From positions 1 to 39,933 of the forward strand of contig JAHOYU010000176.1 in assembly GCA_019038625.1 (NCBI GenBank): a stretch of 39,933 nt of DNA, in the 5' to 3' direction. The number at the start of each line of letters is the position of its first letter. The stretch's first letter is position 1. This document shows positions 2,457 to 9,950 of this stretch, piece after piece. The notes beneath the pieces were generated by a model. That model saw only the letters and a list, made by a program, of their open reading frames with translations. It ran no database searches and was not told the DNA's origin. The stretch is from Candidatus Latescibacterota bacterium. Its GTDB lineage: Bacteria; Krumholzibacteriota; Krumholzibacteriia; Krumholzibacteriales; Krumholzibacteriaceae. The position numbers and the translations under genes were made by a program.

Positions 2457-3602
2457 TTACGACACCTCACCGATCCAATCCACCATCACCTCGAGGGCCA
2501 GGCCGACGTTGCCTATCTGACAATGGTTTTGAGCGTGTTCTTCTTTGGTGAAAACGCGTCCGGTTACAGACTTCGCGTTGGTCAGTACATCCAGTTGCTT
2601 CTGGTGCATTTTTTTTGGGATGAAGTGGTCCTTGCGTCCGGATAGTATCAATACGTCCTGATTTACCAGTTCGGGATGGACATTCTCTTCGCATAAAGCC
2701 AATAAAGTGTCGAAAGCGTCCAGCGGCATCTCCTTTTTTGAGATGTACATCAGTTGCGCGGCGAACCACGCGTCCATCGAGGCCCCTTGCTCGATTTTCC
2801 TGAGCGTCATCCTGTTGGACCAGTCACGCAGGTGATTGAAGAAAATCATGTGTAGATCCCAGAGAAAGGGGGGCATACATTGCATATAATCGTGAGCGTG
2901 GCCGTCGGCGATCACTCTGGTTATACGCGACTCGAATGCCGCCGCCCGCAGGCAAAGCCACCCGCCCATAGATATTCCCAACAAGGTGACATCGTCCAGG
3001 GTAAAGAAATCGAGGATAGCGGCGACAGGCTTCTCCCACTCATGATCGAAGGCGAGATCGTATTCGCGACGTGCGCCTCCCTGTCCCGGCCCTTCGAATG
3101 CGATGACCTCATAACCTGCTTCAGCGAAATAGGCCATCCATGAGTAGAATTCCTCGATGAAGGAATCGAACCCGCCATGCATAACGATGGTACCCTTTTT
3201 GATATCTGATGGAACGATTTTCATCGCAGGTAAATACGTACCCTGATAAGGAACTTCGAAACGTTCTATCGAGTCATCGCGGAAAGCCCGGTCGAACAGG
3301 TCTATAAACTTATTGTACAGTTCCTTTTTCTCTACGGTTTCTTTTAGTATATAGAATTCGGCGGCGCGGTAGTAGAATGCCGCATTCATAAGTCTGTTGT
3401 CGGTTTCGGCTTCTTGGGCCAGCCGGAGCATCTCGGTTTTCCAACTCGCGAAGTCCTTGACCAGGTGTCCGGCTCGTATCATATCTTCGTACCGGACATA
3501 CCCCAGCGAATGCCAGCGATTTAACTGGAAATTGAAGAGCTGTTTTCTGTGGAACTTATGGTACCCGACCGGAAGTGTGAAATCGGTTCTATCAGCATTC
3601 AC
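2457..3602 (-). CDS. Alpha/beta hydrolase, FrsA/dienelactone-hydrolase-like
   Basis: A 381-residue hydrolase with a helical N-terminal cap (about residues 1-115) and an alpha/beta core. The oxyanion-side HGGFDSF lies at about 142-148. The nucleophile elbow G-I-S-M-G has Ser211, an acid is plausible at Asp325 (SGRKDHFIP), and His356 or His360 in EEHAQNH could complete the triad. The cap-plus-core layout resembles the FrsA/2,6-dihydropseudooxynicotine hydrolase group; the substrate is unknown. The start is GTG, overlapping the TGA of the upstream YidD-fusion gene (GTGA, four bases). This implies translational coupling as the last gene of the minus-strand operon that begins at 6212. No signal peptide is seen, so it is probably cytoplasmic. 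Confidence 0.8.
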   Translation of the reverse strand: MNADRTDFTLPVGYHKFHRKQLFNFQLNRWHSLGYVRYEDMIRAGHLVKDFASWKTEMLRLAQEAETDNRLMNAAFYYRAAEFYILKETVEKKELYNKFIDLFDRAFRDDSIERFEVPYQGTYLPAMKIVPSDIKKGTIVMHGGFDSFIEEFYSWMAYFAEAGYEVIAFEGPGQGGARREYDLAFDHEWEKPVAAILDFFTLDDVTLLGISMGGWLCLRAAAFESRITRVIADGHAHDYMQCMPPFLWDLHMIFFNHLRDWSNRMTLRKIEQGASMDAWFAAQLMYISKKEMPLDAFDTLLALCEENVHPELVNQDVLILSGRKDHFIPKKMHQKQLDVLTNAKSVTGRVFTKEEHAQNHCQIGNVGLALEVMVDWIGEVS

Positions 3603-4849
3603 TGCTTGTGCCGCCTGACAAATTCTTCCATGTCTTCCTGCTTGAGGATATCATCGATCAACCTGTGCCGGGCAACCGAATTGTGCCGCCTGGCCGCATC
3701 TGCGGAACCCTTGATATTTCCAATATACCAGCCGAGTCCGAAAAACATGGTCGTGGAGGAAAGTCCGTACTGTTCCTTGTTGATAGCATCGGAGATGGTC
3801 CAGCCGATCAGGCCATTTATCAGCAGCGATGCGACCCCCGTACTGTACCTGCCGCTGTAAATGTACCCGGCACCAGGGATGAGCGCGGACAGAAATCCTG
3901 CTACGCCTGGCTTCTTCCGGGGAAGCTTGTCGAAGCGGTCTTCATATTCAAGGAGCCGGTTCGAGGCTGGATAAAAGTCGGATTCCGGGGGGATAGCACG
4001 CATTTTTCCGAGTGAGGCATTAAGATCCGAGATCCTCGCGTAGCTGAGGCCGATGATGAACTGTGATTCGTAATAGTGCGGGTCGTCGGTATCGAGTTCA
4101 TTCCATTCGAGGTTAGTGATTGCGACTGTATAACGGCCAAGAGAGTAGTAACTTTTGCTTCTGTAGAGTTCCATCTCGGATAAAGATGTCCCGTCAATTT
4201 TCAGGGCTTGCCTGTTGATCTCCACAAAAGAGATGCATTGTTCATAATCCCCGCCTTCGTAATAACACCGGCCGATCCGGCTGAATATCGCGGCCCTTCG
4301 CTTTGGGTCCGATTCACCGTGCAGCTCCCGATAGTATTCCGTGATCGCCCTGTAATACTCACCATTTTCACGGAGAAAGTCAGCGAAGCCTGTATCGGGC
4401 TCCGGCTTTTCTGATTTTTGTTCTGGTGAGCGGAATTCGGAATCGGTCGTGAGGGCAAACGTCTGTTCCTCGACTGGAAGAGGGTCGTACGAGAGCATTC
4501 TTCCATCAACCATGACCCTTGGATAGTAATGATAATCCCTTCCACAGCGGAGAAGACGTTCGCAGGATAAGGCATAAGCTTTCAATGGGGAATGACGAAT
4601 GAAAGTGAGTTTCGAATATTGCGAACAGGAGGGATGCATCGGGCAATTGGACTCGCCGTTTACCGGTGATATCCATCTCTGATACAAATCAAGGACGCCG
4701 CTCGTCGCCGCGCCGTATTCTTCCTGCTTTTTTACAATCCCTGCAACGGTCGGTCCGTGCATGTCGTCCAGAGCTGAGGCCCTCGTCGTAAGGAGTCCAG
4801 ATAGAACTGAAGCAACAGCAAGGATGACTGAAAAAGACCTGATACCCAT
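3599..4849 (-). CDS. YidD-TPR-membrane fusion protein
   Basis: This 416-residue protein combines three parts. A signal-like segment (residues 5-26) precedes a YidD-type domain at about 53-110 (LYQRWISP, CPMHPSCSQYS, LKAYALSCERLLRCGRD), with cysteines at 69, 75, 96 and 102. Residues 155-300 are TPR-like helices. Residues 315-385 hold two hydrophobic segments (FLSALIPGAGYIYSG, MFFGLGWYIG) resembling the membrane modules of TM2/DUF5683 proteins. Stand-alone YidD is a small factor of roughly 70-100 residues that helps YidC-dependent membrane insertion. Here the domain follows a signal peptide, so it may face the periplasm and do something different. An AAGGCGG site precedes the ATG. It lies 19 bases after the upstream membrane-protein gene and is coupled to the downstream hydrolase. 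Confidence 0.75.
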   Translation of the reverse strand: MGIRSFSVILAVASVLSGLLTTRASALDDMHGPTVAGIVKKQEEYGAATSGVLDLYQRWISPVNGESNCPMHPSCSQYSKLTFIRHSPLKAYALSCERLLRCGRDYHYYPRVMVDGRMLSYDPLPVEEQTFALTTDSEFRSPEQKSEKPEPDTGFADFLRENGEYYRAITEYYRELHGESDPKRRAAIFSRIGRCYYEGGDYEQCISFVEINRQALKIDGTSLSEMELYRSKSYYSLGRYTVAITNLEWNELDTDDPHYYESQFIIGLSYARISDLNASLGKMRAIPPESDFYPASNRLLEYEDRFDKLPRKKPGVAGFLSALIPGAGYIYSGRYSTGVASLLINGLIGWTISDAINKEQYGLSSTTMFFGLGWYIGNIKGSADAARRHNSVARHRLIDDILKQEDMEEFVRRHKQ

Positions 4850-5528: not shown

Positions 5529-6212
5529 TTACTCAACGGTGGACAGAAATTTCGCCATTTCCGAAATAATGTCCCTGGATACATCGCCGATGGCGTTACC
5601 CATGAGCAACTCGGCATTCGTTTTTGTTTTTCCGTAATCCGCGATTTCGCTGGAGTGTTTTATTACGGTATAGCGCCAGACTTCGACATTGTCACTTTTA
5701 AGTATCCCGGTGAGTTTCACGTCGATATTCGCTGTGACGTCGACTTTTGATGCGATCATCGCGCCGATAATACCTCCGATACATGCCTGCGTGTTCTGCG
5801 CCTGTGCCTCATCAAGCATGACATGGAAACTTTCCAGGGAAGCCATGAATGAATAATCGGCATCCGCGGGAGTGGAGGTTTCTTCGACAACATTGATATT
5901 TGTAAAGAGATGTGAATTCTGAAGGGCAATCAGGAGATGGTCGTTGAATTCAGGAAGCAGGTCGTTCTTGTAATTCTTGTCACCGAGATGTGTTACGCCT
6001 GATTTCCCACCGGAACAACCGTTTTCGACCCGCCCCTTCTTTTCGATTTCAGGTCTCGAATCCACGATCGGAGTATAGTTGATAGACGCGACAGGTTCAG
6101 ACACGGTGAAATCCAGATCGCTCATCTGAGAAGTGACGGCGAATTTCCTCGTGCATCCCTGAACTAAAACGCAGGCAACCAGAATGGACAAAACCACGTG
6201 CCGCTTCTTCAT
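5529..6212 (-). CDS. Lipoprotein, first gene of envelope operon
   Basis: A 227-residue lipoprotein: LVQGC places the lipidated cysteine at residue 20. A short Gly-rich stretch (ACIGGIIGAMIASKV, about 144-158) resembles a glycine zipper. The mature part has the alternating strands of small outer-membrane-associated lipoproteins such as YajG or the ABC-type transport auxiliary family, but the match is too weak to name it. AAGGGGGAAGA precedes the ATG. A promoter lies about 85 bases upstream (6296-6325), making this the first gene of an operon of four. Confidence 0.65.
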   Translation of the reverse strand: MKKRHVVLSILVACVLVQGCTRKFAVTSQMSDLDFTVSEPVASINYTPIVDSRPEIEKKGRVENGCSGGKSGVTHLGDKNYKNDLLPEFNDHLLIALQNSHLFTNINVVEETSTPADADYSFMASLESFHVMLDEAQAQNTQACIGGIIGAMIASKVDVTANIDVKLTGILKSDNVEVWRYTVIKHSSEIADYGKTKTNAELLMGNAIGDVSRDIISEMAKFLSTVE

Positions 6213-6295
6213 TCTTCCCCCTTAACTAAAAAAACCCCGACTGATTCATGAAATTTACGATTTGTTGTTAATCCACATTAAAATCACTGTGGAGA

Positions 6296-6337
6296 AGTGT
6301 ACTCAATATAACTAAATCGTGTCAAGTGATTTTGACA
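6296..6337 (-). promoter_or_regulatory. Promoter of the lipoprotein-YidD operon with inverted repeat
   Basis: On the minus strand TTGACA (6320-6325) and TACACT (6296-6301) are separated by 18 bases, giving a good -35 and a fair -10. The -35 is one arm of a perfect inverted repeat, TGTCAA-N6-TTGACA, at 6320-6337. That could be an operator, or a pair of back-to-back -35 elements. The leader to the ATG at 6212 is about 75 bases. Confidence 0.5.
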
Positions 6338-6407
6338 GGTAGGATAAGACGGATTCAGGCGAGGAAATCATTTAACGTTCAGGATCTGCTTGCCCCTGAA
6401 ATAAACC

Positions 6408-6435
6408 GAGGGAAGCCGGTTACCCGACTTCCCTC
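6408..6435 (-). terminator. Hairpin terminator after RRM gene 1
   Basis: Read on the minus strand this is a 12-bp stem, GAGGGAAGTCGG / CCGGCTTCCCTC, closed by a GTAA tetraloop. One pair is a U-G wobble in the minus-strand RNA but a C-A mismatch in the plus-strand RNA, so it serves the minus-strand RRM gene. The T-rich tail is short (GGTTTATTTC). Confidence 0.6.
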
Positions 6436-6494
6436 TTTATTTTGACCGGTGAGCCACCCTATCTGCAGCACCCGGTAGTACTCGAGCTTAAGCT

Positions 6495-6803
6495 CTAGTA
6501 GCCGCCACGACCGAATCCGCCGCCACGACCGCCGCCACCGCCGCCACCGCCGCGGTTATCGTTGCGAGGACGAGCCTGGTTGACTTTGAGCGTACGACCC
6601 ATGAAATCTTTGTCATTCAGGTTGTCGATAGCTGCCTGGGCCTCGGTGTCGTTTGACATCTCGATAAAACCGAATCCCTTCGGACGACCAGTGTCCCTGT
6701 CCGTAATGATGGATACGGTATCAACCGTTCCGTGTTCTTCAAAAGCTTTCCTGATATCGCTTTCGCTAGTATCGAAAGACATATTTCCAACATAAATCTT
6801 CAT
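6495..6803 (-). CDS. Glycine-rich RRM RNA-binding protein (copy 1)
   Basis: The product is 102 residues with a single RNA recognition motif. RNP2 is KIYVGNM at residues 2-8 and RNP1 is KGFGFIEM at 42-49. A disordered Arg-Gly-Gly tail follows from about residue 80. This is the standard architecture of bacterial cold-shock or stress-related RRM proteins, which bind single-stranded RNA and probably remodel or stabilise transcripts. AGGAGG lies just before the ATG. The leader is long, about 155 bases from a promoter at 6966-6993. A paralogue at 29760 has the same size, a nearly identical RRM, a similar leader length and a similar 3' hairpin. Confidence 0.9.
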   Translation of the reverse strand: MKIYVGNMSFDTSESDIRKAFEEHGTVDTVSIITDRDTGRPKGFGFIEMSNDTEAQAAIDNLNDKDFMGRTLKVNQARPRNDNRGGGGGGGGRGGGFGRGGY

Positions 6804-6965
6804 CAGAGCCTCCTGTAGGCCTCAAACGTAAAAAAGCACATACAGACATATTTTCGGAAAACCAACAAGTCCCCTAATAGAGATGATCAACTAGATAGGT
6901 GTCGTTCATCGTCTTTTTCGGCCAAACGGACTAACTCAAATTCCGAATTCATCTGCTTCGCCAAG

Positions 6966-6993
6966 AATATATACCTATTCTTAACAAAAACAA
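6966..6993 (-). promoter_or_regulatory. Promoter for RRM gene 1
   Basis: Minus-strand TTGTTT (6988-6993) and TATATT (6966-6971) lie 16 bases apart. Transcription would start near 6959 and leave an untranslated leader of about 155 bases. Long leaders are typical of cold-shock mRNAs, which fold to control translation. Confidence 0.5.
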
Positions 6994-7015
6994 CCCTAAA
7001 ATTCAGTTTTTTCAA

Positions 7016-7128
7016 CTATTTGCGATTTCGAAATATCCCCACAACACTGGCAATAATCAGAATCGCGCCGATCCACGATCCAGGCAGGGGCTTTGAACGC
7101 ATCAATTCAGACAATTCAAAAAAAGCTT
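7016..7128 (-). pseudogene. EamA-family transporter C-terminal remnant
   Basis: The minus strand encodes about 36 codons ending WIGAILIIASVVGIFRNRK and a TAG. The last 17 residues match the intact EamA protein at 9057-9950 in all but one position. The first 44 bases (7016-7059) match 9057-9100 at 40 positions, and all four differences are synonymous. Similarity then falls off, and an in-frame stop lies just upstream of codon 1. This is the severed tail of a related EamA gene. It sits directly before the marR-hgcAB promoter, so the cassette is flanked by two EamA ends in the same orientation. Confidence 0.8.
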
Positions 7129-7155
7129 GCTAAACCAATAATTGTATAATACAAT
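7127..7155 (+). promoter_or_regulatory. marR-hgcAB promoter and palindromic operator
   Basis: TTGCTA (7127-7132), a 17-base spacer and TACAAT (7150-7155) form a good promoter. The -10 is one half of a perfect 15-base palindrome, ATTGTAT-A-ATACAAT, at 7141-7155. A MarR dimer bound there would block RNA polymerase, giving negative autoregulation of marR and control of hgcAB. A looser TTACAATAT copy follows at 7165-7173. The leader to the marR ATG is about 38 bases, with AGGGGG as ribosome-binding site. Confidence 0.65.
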
Positions 7156-7199
7156 AATAGCATGTTACAATATCATGTCATTCTTCAGGGGGCAGCATT

Positions 7200-7652
7200 A
7201 TGACACAAGTGAAGGTGGATTATAGTGAATTCTCCCTGTTTGTATCACTACTGGTCAAAAAATTGAGTCTGCTGAACAGAGACCATAAATCCTGTTATGG
7301 CCTGACGATGTCCCAGTGTTTCACAATCGAGGCCCTTGCTGAAAACGGCAAGCTGTCAATGAATAAACTGAGCCATGAGCTGGGTGTCACCGTAAGTACC
7401 ATGACCAGGATCATTGATGTACTTCTGCGTGATGGAAATGTCAACAGGCGAGATAATCCGGATGACAGGCGTCAAGTCTGTATTGAACTCACCTCCTCAG
7501 GCAGAAACCTAGCTGTGAAACTGAGGCAATGCTCAGACCACTACGCAAGGGATATACTGGATCAGATACCAGAAAAGGAAAAGAATGGAGTAATCAAGTC
7601 TTTGAAAATGCTTGTCAAGGCATTGGAGTCTGCGAACAAGAAATGTTGCTAG
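7200..7652 (+). CDS. MarR-family regulator linked to hgcAB
   Basis: A 150-residue winged-helix regulator of the MarR family. The recognition region is LSMNKLSHELGVTVSTMTRIIDVLLRDG (residues 52-79), and the wing contains the hallmark DPDDRR-type sequence NPDDRRQVCIELTSSG (86-101). The flanking helices would form the dimer interface. It has six cysteines (32, 40, 94, 111, 149, 150), including a C-terminal vicinal pair, which is many for this family and could allow thiol or metal sensing. The hgcA ATG follows 34 bases downstream on the same strand, so one transcript is likely. By context it senses a signal relevant to mercury, arsenic or redox state; that is inference. Confidence 0.85.
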   Translation: MTQVKVDYSEFSLFVSLLVKKLSLLNRDHKSCYGLTMSQCFTIEALAENGKLSMNKLSHELGVTVSTMTRIIDVLLRDGNVNRRDNPDDRRQVCIELTSSGRNLAVKLRQCSDHYARDILDQIPEKEKNGVIKSLKMLVKALESANKKCC

Positions 7653-7686
7653 GTGTTCCGGAAGAATTATCAATATAGAAAGAGAA

Positions 7687-8718
7687 ATGAAGAAAAAATA
7701 TATAACTGGTTCAATTGAGACGAAGGGTGGAGAGATCCCGACAGTCTCAACTTCGATTGACAGGATGGATAAATGGGGAGCATTCAAAGCAAGGTGTTCA
7801 ATCGGTCGTATGCGCTATACGATTAGGCCGGGCCTGTATGCAGCCGGAAATCCTGATCAGGATTCGATCGTCCTGGTCTCAGCAAACTACAAGTTGAGTT
7901 TTGACGTGCTTCGAAGTTCTCTTCATGGAATCGATGCATGGATATTAGTGTTGGATACTAAAGGTATCAACGTATGGTGTGCCGCAGGCAAAGGAACGTT
8001 CGGAACAGATGAGATAGTCAATCGCATTGAGCAGACGAGGCTGAAAGAGATAATAGGTCATCGCAAACTTATTGTTCCACAACTTGGAGCACCCGGGGTG
8101 GCCGCTCATGAAGTTAAGAAACACTCGGGATTCACGGTGATATACGGTCCTGTGCGAGCGTCTGATATACTATCTTTTCTTGAAAACGGAATGGTTGCGA
8201 CAGCTGAAATGCGAAAGGTGAACTTCTCAATGCGTGACAGGTCGGTTCTGGTACCTGTGGAATTTGTAATGGGATTCAAACATCTGGTTCTGGCCTCTGT
8301 TGTCTTTTTCCTTTTAGCCGGTTTGCATAAAGGGGGATATTCCACCCAGGTTGCTCTAACGGCAGGTAGTCGATCGACCCTGATACTGCTTCTTGCGTTC
8401 CTGACGGGAACGATAATGGTGCCGATGCTCCTTCCCTGGCTGCCGGGCAGGAGTTTTTCCCTGAAAGGACTGATCGCCGGTCTTATACTGATTGTTGTCC
8501 TGGGTGTCTCAGGGTTTGCGGAATCAAATATTATTGAATCGCTTGCCTGGATACTGATAGTCACTGCAATATCTTCTTTCACTGCTATGAATTTCACGGG
8601 GGCTTCGACCTACACATCTCTGTCTGGTGTGAAGAAGGAAATGCGGATTGCGGTTCCTTTACAGATCACTGCATCGTTGACAGGAGTGACACTATGGATA
8701 ATAGGAAGATTTGTCTGA
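7687..8718 (+). CDS. hgcA: Mercury methylation corrinoid protein HgcA
   Basis: HgcA transfers a methyl group from its cobalamin to Hg(II), making methylmercury together with HgcB. This 343-residue protein has the diagnostic cap-helix motif N-V-W-C-A-A-G-K at residues 95-102, with Cys98 as the expected lower-axial cobalt ligand. The corrinoid-binding domain spans about 30-175. Five membrane segments follow (about 195-213, 230-250, 259-277, 283-301, 322-341). MNFTGASTYTSLSGVKKEM at 301-319 also looks like the conserved HgcA C-terminal loop. The membrane domain distinguishes it from the acetyl-CoA-pathway protein CfsA/AcsD. I chose the ATG at 7687; a frame-open extension to 7612 would overlap marR and adds nothing family-like. 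hgcB starts 13 bases after the stop. Confidence 0.95.
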   Translation: MKKKYITGSIETKGGEIPTVSTSIDRMDKWGAFKARCSIGRMRYTIRPGLYAAGNPDQDSIVLVSANYKLSFDVLRSSLHGIDAWILVLDTKGINVWCAAGKGTFGTDEIVNRIEQTRLKEIIGHRKLIVPQLGAPGVAAHEVKKHSGFTVIYGPVRASDILSFLENGMVATAEMRKVNFSMRDRSVLVPVEFVMGFKHLVLASVVFFLLAGLHKGGYSTQVALTAGSRSTLILLLAFLTGTIMVPMLLPWLPGRSFSLKGLIAGLILIVVLGVSGFAESNIIESLAWILIVTAISSFTAMNFTGASTYTSLSGVKKEMRIAVPLQITASLTGVTLWIIGRFV

Positions 8719-8731
8719 AAGGTATGGGACA

Positions 8732-9019
8732 ATGGCCTCAATGAAGTATCTGAGAAATGTCGCTACACTGAAGTTGGATGCCGAGAGATGTATTGGCTGT
8801 GGGGTGTGCTCGACTGTCTGTCCACATGCGGTTTTTGATATCATTGGGAAAAAAGCGAGGATAGTCGACAAGGATTCATGCATGGAATGCGGTGCATGTG
8901 CCAGGAACTGTCCCGCATGCGCGATCACTGTCAAATCCGGAGTCGGTTGTGCGGCTGGCATTATAGCCGGCATGCTCAGGGGTACAGAGCCGGCATGTGA
9001 TGAAGGATGTTGTGGATAG
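8732..9019 (+). CDS. hgcB: Mercury methylation ferredoxin HgcB
   Basis: HgcB supplies electrons to reduce the HgcA cobalt and may handle the mercury substrate. The product is 95 residues, the usual length. It carries two 4Fe-4S motifs, Cys20-23-26-30-Pro and Cys50-53-56-60-Pro. It also has Cys73, the position of the additional conserved cysteine, and the vicinal pair Cys93-Cys94 at the C-terminus (EGCCG), which marks HgcB among small ferredoxins. The ATG at 8732 is preferred because GAAAGG lies nine bases upstream; this ribosome-binding site overlaps the hgcA stop. A TTG at 8711 and an ATG at 8741 are alternatives. It is the last gene of the cassette, with the convergent EamA gene 37 bases away. 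Confidence 0.95.
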   Translation: MASMKYLRNVATLKLDAERCIGCGVCSTVCPHAVFDIIGKKARIVDKDSCMECGACARNCPACAITVKSGVGCAAGIIAGMLRGTEPACDEGCCG

Positions 9020-9042
9020 GACAGGGACTGCTGCAGTGTCCT
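9018..9042 (+). terminator. Weak hairpin after hgcB
   Basis: AGGACA (9018-9023) pairs with TGTCCT (9037-9042), with an ACTGC/GCAGT pairing also possible inside. There is no T-tract, so termination is doubtful. It lies between the convergent hgcB and EamA genes. Confidence 0.3.
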
Positions 9043-9056
9043 GGCGGCTGACTGGA

Positions 9057-9950
9057 TTATTTGCGATTTCGAAATATCCCTACAACACTGGCGATGATCA
9101 ATAATGCTCCGGTCATGGTCCATCCGGTGACGCTTTCCCTGAGGATCAGCCAGCCGAGAAAGACCGCGATCACCGGGTTTACATAGGCATAGGTCATGAC
9201 GACCTGGTAGGGGAGAAGCCTCAGGGTCGTAAGGTAGGAAGTAAAACAGATCACCGAGCTGAACAGGACGAGGTATCCCCAGGCCATCCATGCTTCGCCC
9301 GTGGGAGTGGGCAGGGGTTCGCGCCGGAGCAGGGCGATGGCCAGTAGTCCGACCCCGCCCAGTAGCTGTTGCCAACCTGACATGGCCCGGTCACTGAGGT
9401 CGAGTTTCCTCCTCTGCAGCCAGATAGAACCAGCGGCCCAGGAAAGGGGGGCGAAGAGAAGAGCGGCGACGGCCAGGATGTCCGCTGTGTTTCCCAGTCT
9501 CAGAACGGGCCAGGACAGGACGCCGACTCCGAGGAATCCAAGAAATACAGAGCCTGTCATCCGCCAGCCGGGGAAACGCCGGTCGACGACACAGACCATG
9601 CACTCGGCCCATATCGGCATCGATGCCACGAGCAGGGCCGCCAGCCCGGACGAGACACGAGTCTCCCCCCAGTTGACCAGCCCGTTGCCTCCGAGCCAGA
9701 GCAAAATGCCGCTACCGGCGAGTATTCCAAATTCCGGGAGAGAAAGCCGGATCCTCTCTCGGCGCAGCCGGGCCCATATCAGCAATATTGCCGATGCTGC
9801 CATGACCCGTACAAATGCCATTGTAAATGGAGGGAATCCCGATCCTTCCCTGACAGCTACACGTATTGCCAGGTAGGTGGATCCCCAGACCAGATATACT
9901 ATCGATAGATGAGCAAGTCCGGCCCTATCGAGTGTTTTTCTGTCGACCAT
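9057..9950 (-). CDS. EamA/DMT-family transporter
   Basis: A 297-residue inner-membrane protein with about ten transmembrane helices arranged as two EamA halves. The N-terminal half begins LSIVYLVWGSTYLAIRVAV and the second half has YAYVNPVIAVFLGWLILRE, both characteristic of drug/metabolite exporters of the RhaT/YedA kind. The substrate cannot be told. The start lies 11 bases after the phosphofructokinase stop, so the two genes probably share a transcript. Its last 44 coding bases are repeated at 7016-7059, on the far side of marR-hgcAB. Confidence 0.85.
   Translation of the reverse strand: MVDRKTLDRAGLAHLSIVYLVWGSTYLAIRVAVREGSGFPPFTMAFVRVMAASAILLIWARLRRERIRLSLPEFGILAGSGILLWLGGNGLVNWGETRVSSGLAALLVASMPIWAECMVCVVDRRFPGWRMTGSVFLGFLGVGVLSWPVLRLGNTADILAVAALLFAPLSWAAGSIWLQRRKLDLSDRAMSGWQQLLGGVGLLAIALLRREPLPTPTGEAWMAWGYLVLFSSVICFTSYLTTLRLLPYQVVMTYAYVNPVIAVFLGWLILRESVTGWTMTGALLIIASVVGIFRNRK

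Follow-up and report, generated by a model that had tools for sequence, protein, structure and literature searches.

The window (the whole 39,933-nt stretch of contig JAHOYU010000176.1 analysed here, assembly GCA_019038625.1, Candidatus Latescibacterota bacterium) harbored three tandem genes of the ORF list in the order marR–hgcA–hgcB, all on the plus strand: (i) a marR-type regulator gene (7200–7652, 150 aa), (ii) hgcA, encoding the corrinoid membrane protein of mercury methylation (7687–8718, 343 aa), and (iii) hgcB, encoding the ferredoxin of mercury methylation (8732–9019, 95 aa from ATG). The marR–hgcA and hgcA–hgcB gaps were 34 nt and 13 nt, respectively. HgcA scored 456 bits against NCBIfam model NF040863 (curated cut-off 275) and 197 bits against the HgcAB-like fusion model (below its cut-off of 285); the CdhD/CFeSP model gave 43 bits, far under the NF040863 score, and HgcA thus did not fall with the CFeSP proteins, the placement named in the initial annotation as the case against hgcA. 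HgcA displayed the cap-helix motif N(V/I)WCA(A/S)GK as NVWCAAGK (residues 95–102), followed by a C-terminal membrane domain with about five segments between residues 187 and 339 according to hydropathy. HgcB scored 122 bits against NF040864 (curated cut-off 99) and contained two 4Fe-4S motifs, the single C73, and the C-terminal pair C93–C94. The hallmarks by which the initial annotation had recognized the pair as hgcAB (the HgcA motif, five membrane segments, two 4Fe-4S motifs, Cys73, and terminal vicinal cysteines) were therefore all recovered, and comparison with the curated families supported this identity. This hgcA was the single match in the window's genome (3.78 Mb, 96% complete).

Family membership suggests that the window HgcAB would methylate mercury. 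The native role of HgcAB is unsettled in the literature (PMC10349881), and the pair might be no working mercury methylase or might act on a native substrate other than mercury; however, the catalytic motifs were all intact, both proteins exceeded curated cut-offs, and stops or frameshifts were not found in the window hgcAB, which makes this alternative unlikely. The NrfHA pair that had also been attributed to the host was upheld for NrfH (TIGR03153, above cut-off), while NrfA matched NF008339 with an E value of 2.7e-140 yet stayed under the equivalog cut-off of that model. Elsewhere in the window (3599–4849), a 416-aa protein carried a YidD domain (TIGR00278) near its start, an unusual fusion.

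The regulator gene had been assigned to the MarR family, 34 bases ahead of hgcA, and both the gap and the family were upheld. MarR models led the Pfam matches of its product (PF01047, E value 1.2e-12), the predicted fold was that of MarR (mean pLDDT 86.9) with MarR proteins as the best PDB matches, and the winged-helix domain plus this fold, predicted on one modelled chain, place the protein in the MarR family. The ArsR/SmtB domain PF01022 was not among its Pfam matches and HgcC model NF040962 was not among its NCBIfam matches, so that neither an ArsR-like regulator nor HgcC was indicated. The protein carried the cysteines C32, C111, C149, and C150, retained in 48/48, 47/48, 47/48, and 40/48 distinct members of its hgcA-linked family, respectively; the first three, kept at 98–100%, equaled the DNA-binding residues in conservation, despite a difference of about 70% or more of residues between the two clades of the family. 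The AdcR zinc-regulator profile was almost collinear with the window MarR (30–140 to 29–141), and C32 would fall near ZitR Cys30, a residue mutated in a solved structure. The window MarR belonged to the hgcA-linked MarR family, as defined in the present analysis, by its location directly upstream of hgcA, its C32, C111, and C149, and its TTGTATnnTACAA operator (see below).

The genomic distribution of this family was strongly tied to hgcA. Within the order of locus L050 (Syntrophales), 55 of 155 genomes harbored the MarR family, each in a single copy, and 78 genomes of the same set harbored hgcA; co-occurrence was significant (Fisher p 1.7e-19), a value in which kinship of the genomes overstates independence. 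All 53 Syntrophales copies sharing a contig with hgcA (53/53) were located directly upstream of it on the same strand, and the remaining two lay at a contig end (G134) and in G224. The G224 copy (C154, 288–671) was an hgcA-type MarR gene with an internal stop codon, its genome had no hgcA, and the locus is a decayed one. The three testable copies in the order to which the Aminicenantes locus belongs all adjoined hgcA, and the ten genomes reached via MarR–hgcA loci had one family member apiece, with the next MarR far lower in score. In the window's phylum, the family was found in the window's genome only, and hgcA in 7 of 80 genomes. On the basis of these comparisons, the window MarR belongs to a family with exclusive linkage to hgcAB.

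Among the 80 HgcA loci closest to the window (one genome per species; a few others were cut by a contig end), MarR was just upstream in 20, and the other upstream genes encoded a DsbD/CcdA-like membrane protein (15), ArsR (5), AbrB-type HgcC (4), an ArsC-like protein (3), ArsM (1), and PadR (1), with representatives of the upstream-gene clusters verified against Pfam and NCBIfam. The DsbD/CcdA-like gene was positioned right before hgcA in its 15 loci (L024, L038, L046, and other Bacteroidetes), often with a gap of <15 nt, and its product is a possible redox partner of HgcAB. As a separate observation, HgcA at L012 (4878–6032) and L013 (908–2068) had a cysteine-rich N-terminal extension of the CCGSS...PPCCSS type, while the window HgcA did not.

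Upstream of marR, a sigma-70-type promoter was predicted (TTGCTA–17 nt–TACAAT; 7127–7155, plus strand), its spacing to the operator being the same as that of TTGACA in Aminicenantes L012. Two putative operator sites were recognized: (i) site 1, TTGTATAATACAA (7142–7154), a perfect palindrome over the -10 region, and (ii) site 2, TAGCATGTTACAA (7158–7170), degenerate (9/11) and 16 nt after site 1. The palindrome TTGTATnnTACAA was present over the marR promoter in 46/46 MarR–hgcA loci with a best site of 10–11 of 11 positions, a support drawn mostly from related Syntrophales loci; at 70 hgcA loci without MarR, one site reached 10 (L009) and three reached 9. The 16-nt tandem spacing was also found in L012, L013, and L029, and the weaker L055 sites fit it. 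In Syntrophales, the operator followed TTGACA and touched the start codon, and the apparent N-terminal MYxTTM of MarR in the longest Syntrophales frames was largely the operator read as protein. Between marR and hgcA, no operator above background was found and no promoter was predicted in the 34-nt gap; the Rfam search of 6200–9500 gave no match. The Cloacimonadota locus L009 (1–343), which carried the closest HgcA, retained a pair of degenerate sites, spaced 16 nt, immediately ahead of hgcA and without an intervening marR; this operon would be either a relic or controlled in trans. Taken by comparison across loci, the operator at the marR promoter is conserved.

The one-mismatch operator search of the window's own genome gave 39 matches versus 43 in the reversed control, and thus only the single perfect match in the 3.78-Mb genome, namely site 1, was considered meaningful. 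These results bear on whether the MarR might be an activator, or a regulator of other genes placed before hgcA incidentally; this is highly improbable, given that every testable Syntrophales copy precedes hgcA, that the sole perfect operator sits at marR itself, and that the predicted operator overlaps the -10 box, a position typical of repression. Control of hgcAB by the MarR-type regulator, as claimed in the initial annotation, is probable, and the conserved operator and the exclusive linkage support it far better than the annotation could foresee.

The operon was bordered by EamA transporter sequences on the minus strand: the remnant of an EamA 3′ end on the left (7017–7081), which was a 57-nt direct repeat of 9058–9114 (84% identical) and was kept in the sister locus L199 (5213–5281), and the 3′ end of an intact EamA transporter on the right (9057–9950), recognized by Pfam matches and sister comparison. 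Sister species G017 of the same genus matched the window on both flanks of the cassette, on the left as far as 7081 (87.6%) and on the right from 9059 onward (87.5%), and this two-sided alignment rules out a contig-end binning artefact as the origin of the cassette. Between these flanks, G017 lacked hgcA, and its 1.39 kb of other sequence there carried a different gene as well as a SEC-C-like ORF; the EamA remnant and the intact EamA gene thus flank a variable insertion site with differing contents in the two genomes. The GC3 of marR and hgcAB was 45–52% versus 56–70% in the neighbors. Because the 2-kb cassette is absent from the syntenic sister, it was probably acquired horizontally, loss in the sister being the alternative. 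The 57-nt repeat at the borders suggests an integrative element with att repeats, but the cassette contained no integrase and the sister keeps the same EamA remnant around other DNA. In the HgcA tree, the window HgcA fell together with those of Aminicenantes that carry MarR and of one Cloacimonadota (support 93, not starred); vertical placement beside its phylum mates was not rejected by the AU test (p 0.22), and the tree was therefore not used as proof of transfer.

The MarR tree displayed a firm clade A (window, Aminicenantes, KSB1, and L013; support 97/96), joined weakly with the Syntrophales MarR clade (81/44), and separate recruitment of the two is thus possible. The nearest MarR relatives away from hgcA included some that preceded arsenic genes, namely arsN–arsM at L090 (from a phylum mate) and arsN at L094, with the ArsM and ArsN2 products passing curated cut-offs (NF008823 and NF040501). 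These relatives shared C32 and a C-terminal cysteine with the window MarR and were accompanied by AGTTG...CAACT palindromes, but they lacked C111, which the hgcA-adjacent window MarR contains. In the same phylum, the MarR genes at L092 and L095 likewise encoded cysteines and were preceded by palindromes of the AGTTGTAT type, at L092 as two sites 16 nt apart.

The comparison thus established gene identity, exclusive linkage, an operator, cysteine conservation, and insertion at a variable site, from which DNA binding, repression, an inducer, and methylation activity may be proposed as follows. The region 7127–9019 would be a horizontally acquired marR–hgcA–hgcB operon, autorepressed by MarR and released by a trivalent arsenical or Hg(II) at the cysteines, a reading given a probability of roughly 0.7. 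A MarR dimer would bind its own promoter, at site 1 over the -10 box and at site 2 near the transcription start, and thereby repress the whole operon; C32, C111, and C149 would make up a thiol site that accepts a trivalent arsenical [As(III) or methyl-As(III)] or Hg(II), and once the metal(loid) is bound, MarR would leave the DNA and HgcAB would be made. Because the same cysteine-bearing MarR and operator recur beside hgcAB in many bacteria, the MarR probably serves as a dedicated control of methylmercury production that senses a metal or arsenic. Arsenic would be the favored inducer, since MarR relatives are located on arsenic genes and an arsenic response is reported for hgcAB under ArsR control (PMC10349881), with Hg(II) as a possible one; counting against either assignment, the inducer reading draws on cysteine conservation and arsenic-linked relatives, and C32 plus the C-terminal cysteine also occur in those relatives. 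It is rather doubtful that the hgcA-linked MarR is a mercury-responsive switch whose three cysteines bind Hg(II) itself, but if so, the arrival of mercury would turn on methylmercury production in these bacteria, an argument for mercury methylation as a regulated trait rather than a metabolic accident.

Many MarR proteins sense redox or organic ligands, and MarR might thus repress marR–hgcAB while responding to a non-metal signal such as redox state, sulfide/polysulfide, or an organic ligand. Redox sensors (AbfR) and drug-responsive repressors are among the PDB fold neighbors of the window MarR, OhrR-type NCBIfam models match it weakly, and cysteines also serve in thiol redox switches; against this, three near-invariant cysteines match the three-coordinate thiophilic binding seen with ArsR proteins, which bind As(III) by three cysteines (PMC11868830), and the closest relatives are arsN/arsM-linked. 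Sensing of a non-metal signal is accordingly a serious but lesser possibility beside release by an arsenical or Hg(II).

Several known systems resemble the window locus. As cited in PMC10349881 and PMC7438021, the ArsR-like regulator of Pseudodesulfovibrio mercurii ND132 is likewise small, of the winged-helix type, encoded just ahead of hgcAB, and linked to arsenic, but it belongs to ArsR/SmtB (PF01022), whereas the window regulator is of the MarR family (PF01047), differs in its cysteines, and has an operator of its own. The AbrB/PrlF-type HgcC (NF040962; the prlF/abrB gene of Zhang et al. 2023) is also a dedicated gene directly before hgcA, but its fold is unrelated to MarR and it was seen at loci without MarR (L043, L062, L067, and L087). 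McDaniel et al. 2020 (PMC7438021) described a conserved putative regulator whose gene adjoins hgcAB on the upstream side in 112 genomes, from permafrost and other sources; its family is unnamed in the text, and it is hence not equated with MarR or HgcC. The initial annotation had supposed that a MarR gene beside hgcAB may be new, which is wrong as stated: Zhang et al. 2023 already name a MarR family gene upstream of hgcA in two isolates, in one sentence that is without cysteines, operator, or family, and that MarR may or may not be of the family defined in the present analysis. hgcAB being known and MarR beside hgcA being noted already, the arrangement is not new as such; in the literature searched, with most subscription papers outside it, no prior account was found of the MarR family, its cysteines, its operator, or its tie to arsenic-linked MarR.

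Mercury biology asks what switches hgcAB on and what hgcAB is for. With its near-invariant cysteines and a defined putative operator of 13 bp, this dedicated regulator, present in several phyla, makes the proposed control testable with purified protein and with a reporter in a laboratory strain. The MarR would be a second regulator family, unrelated to ArsR, joining hgcAB to arsenic regulation, and it would lend weight to the idea that hgcAB is expressed in response to arsenic or to other toxicants that seek thiols.
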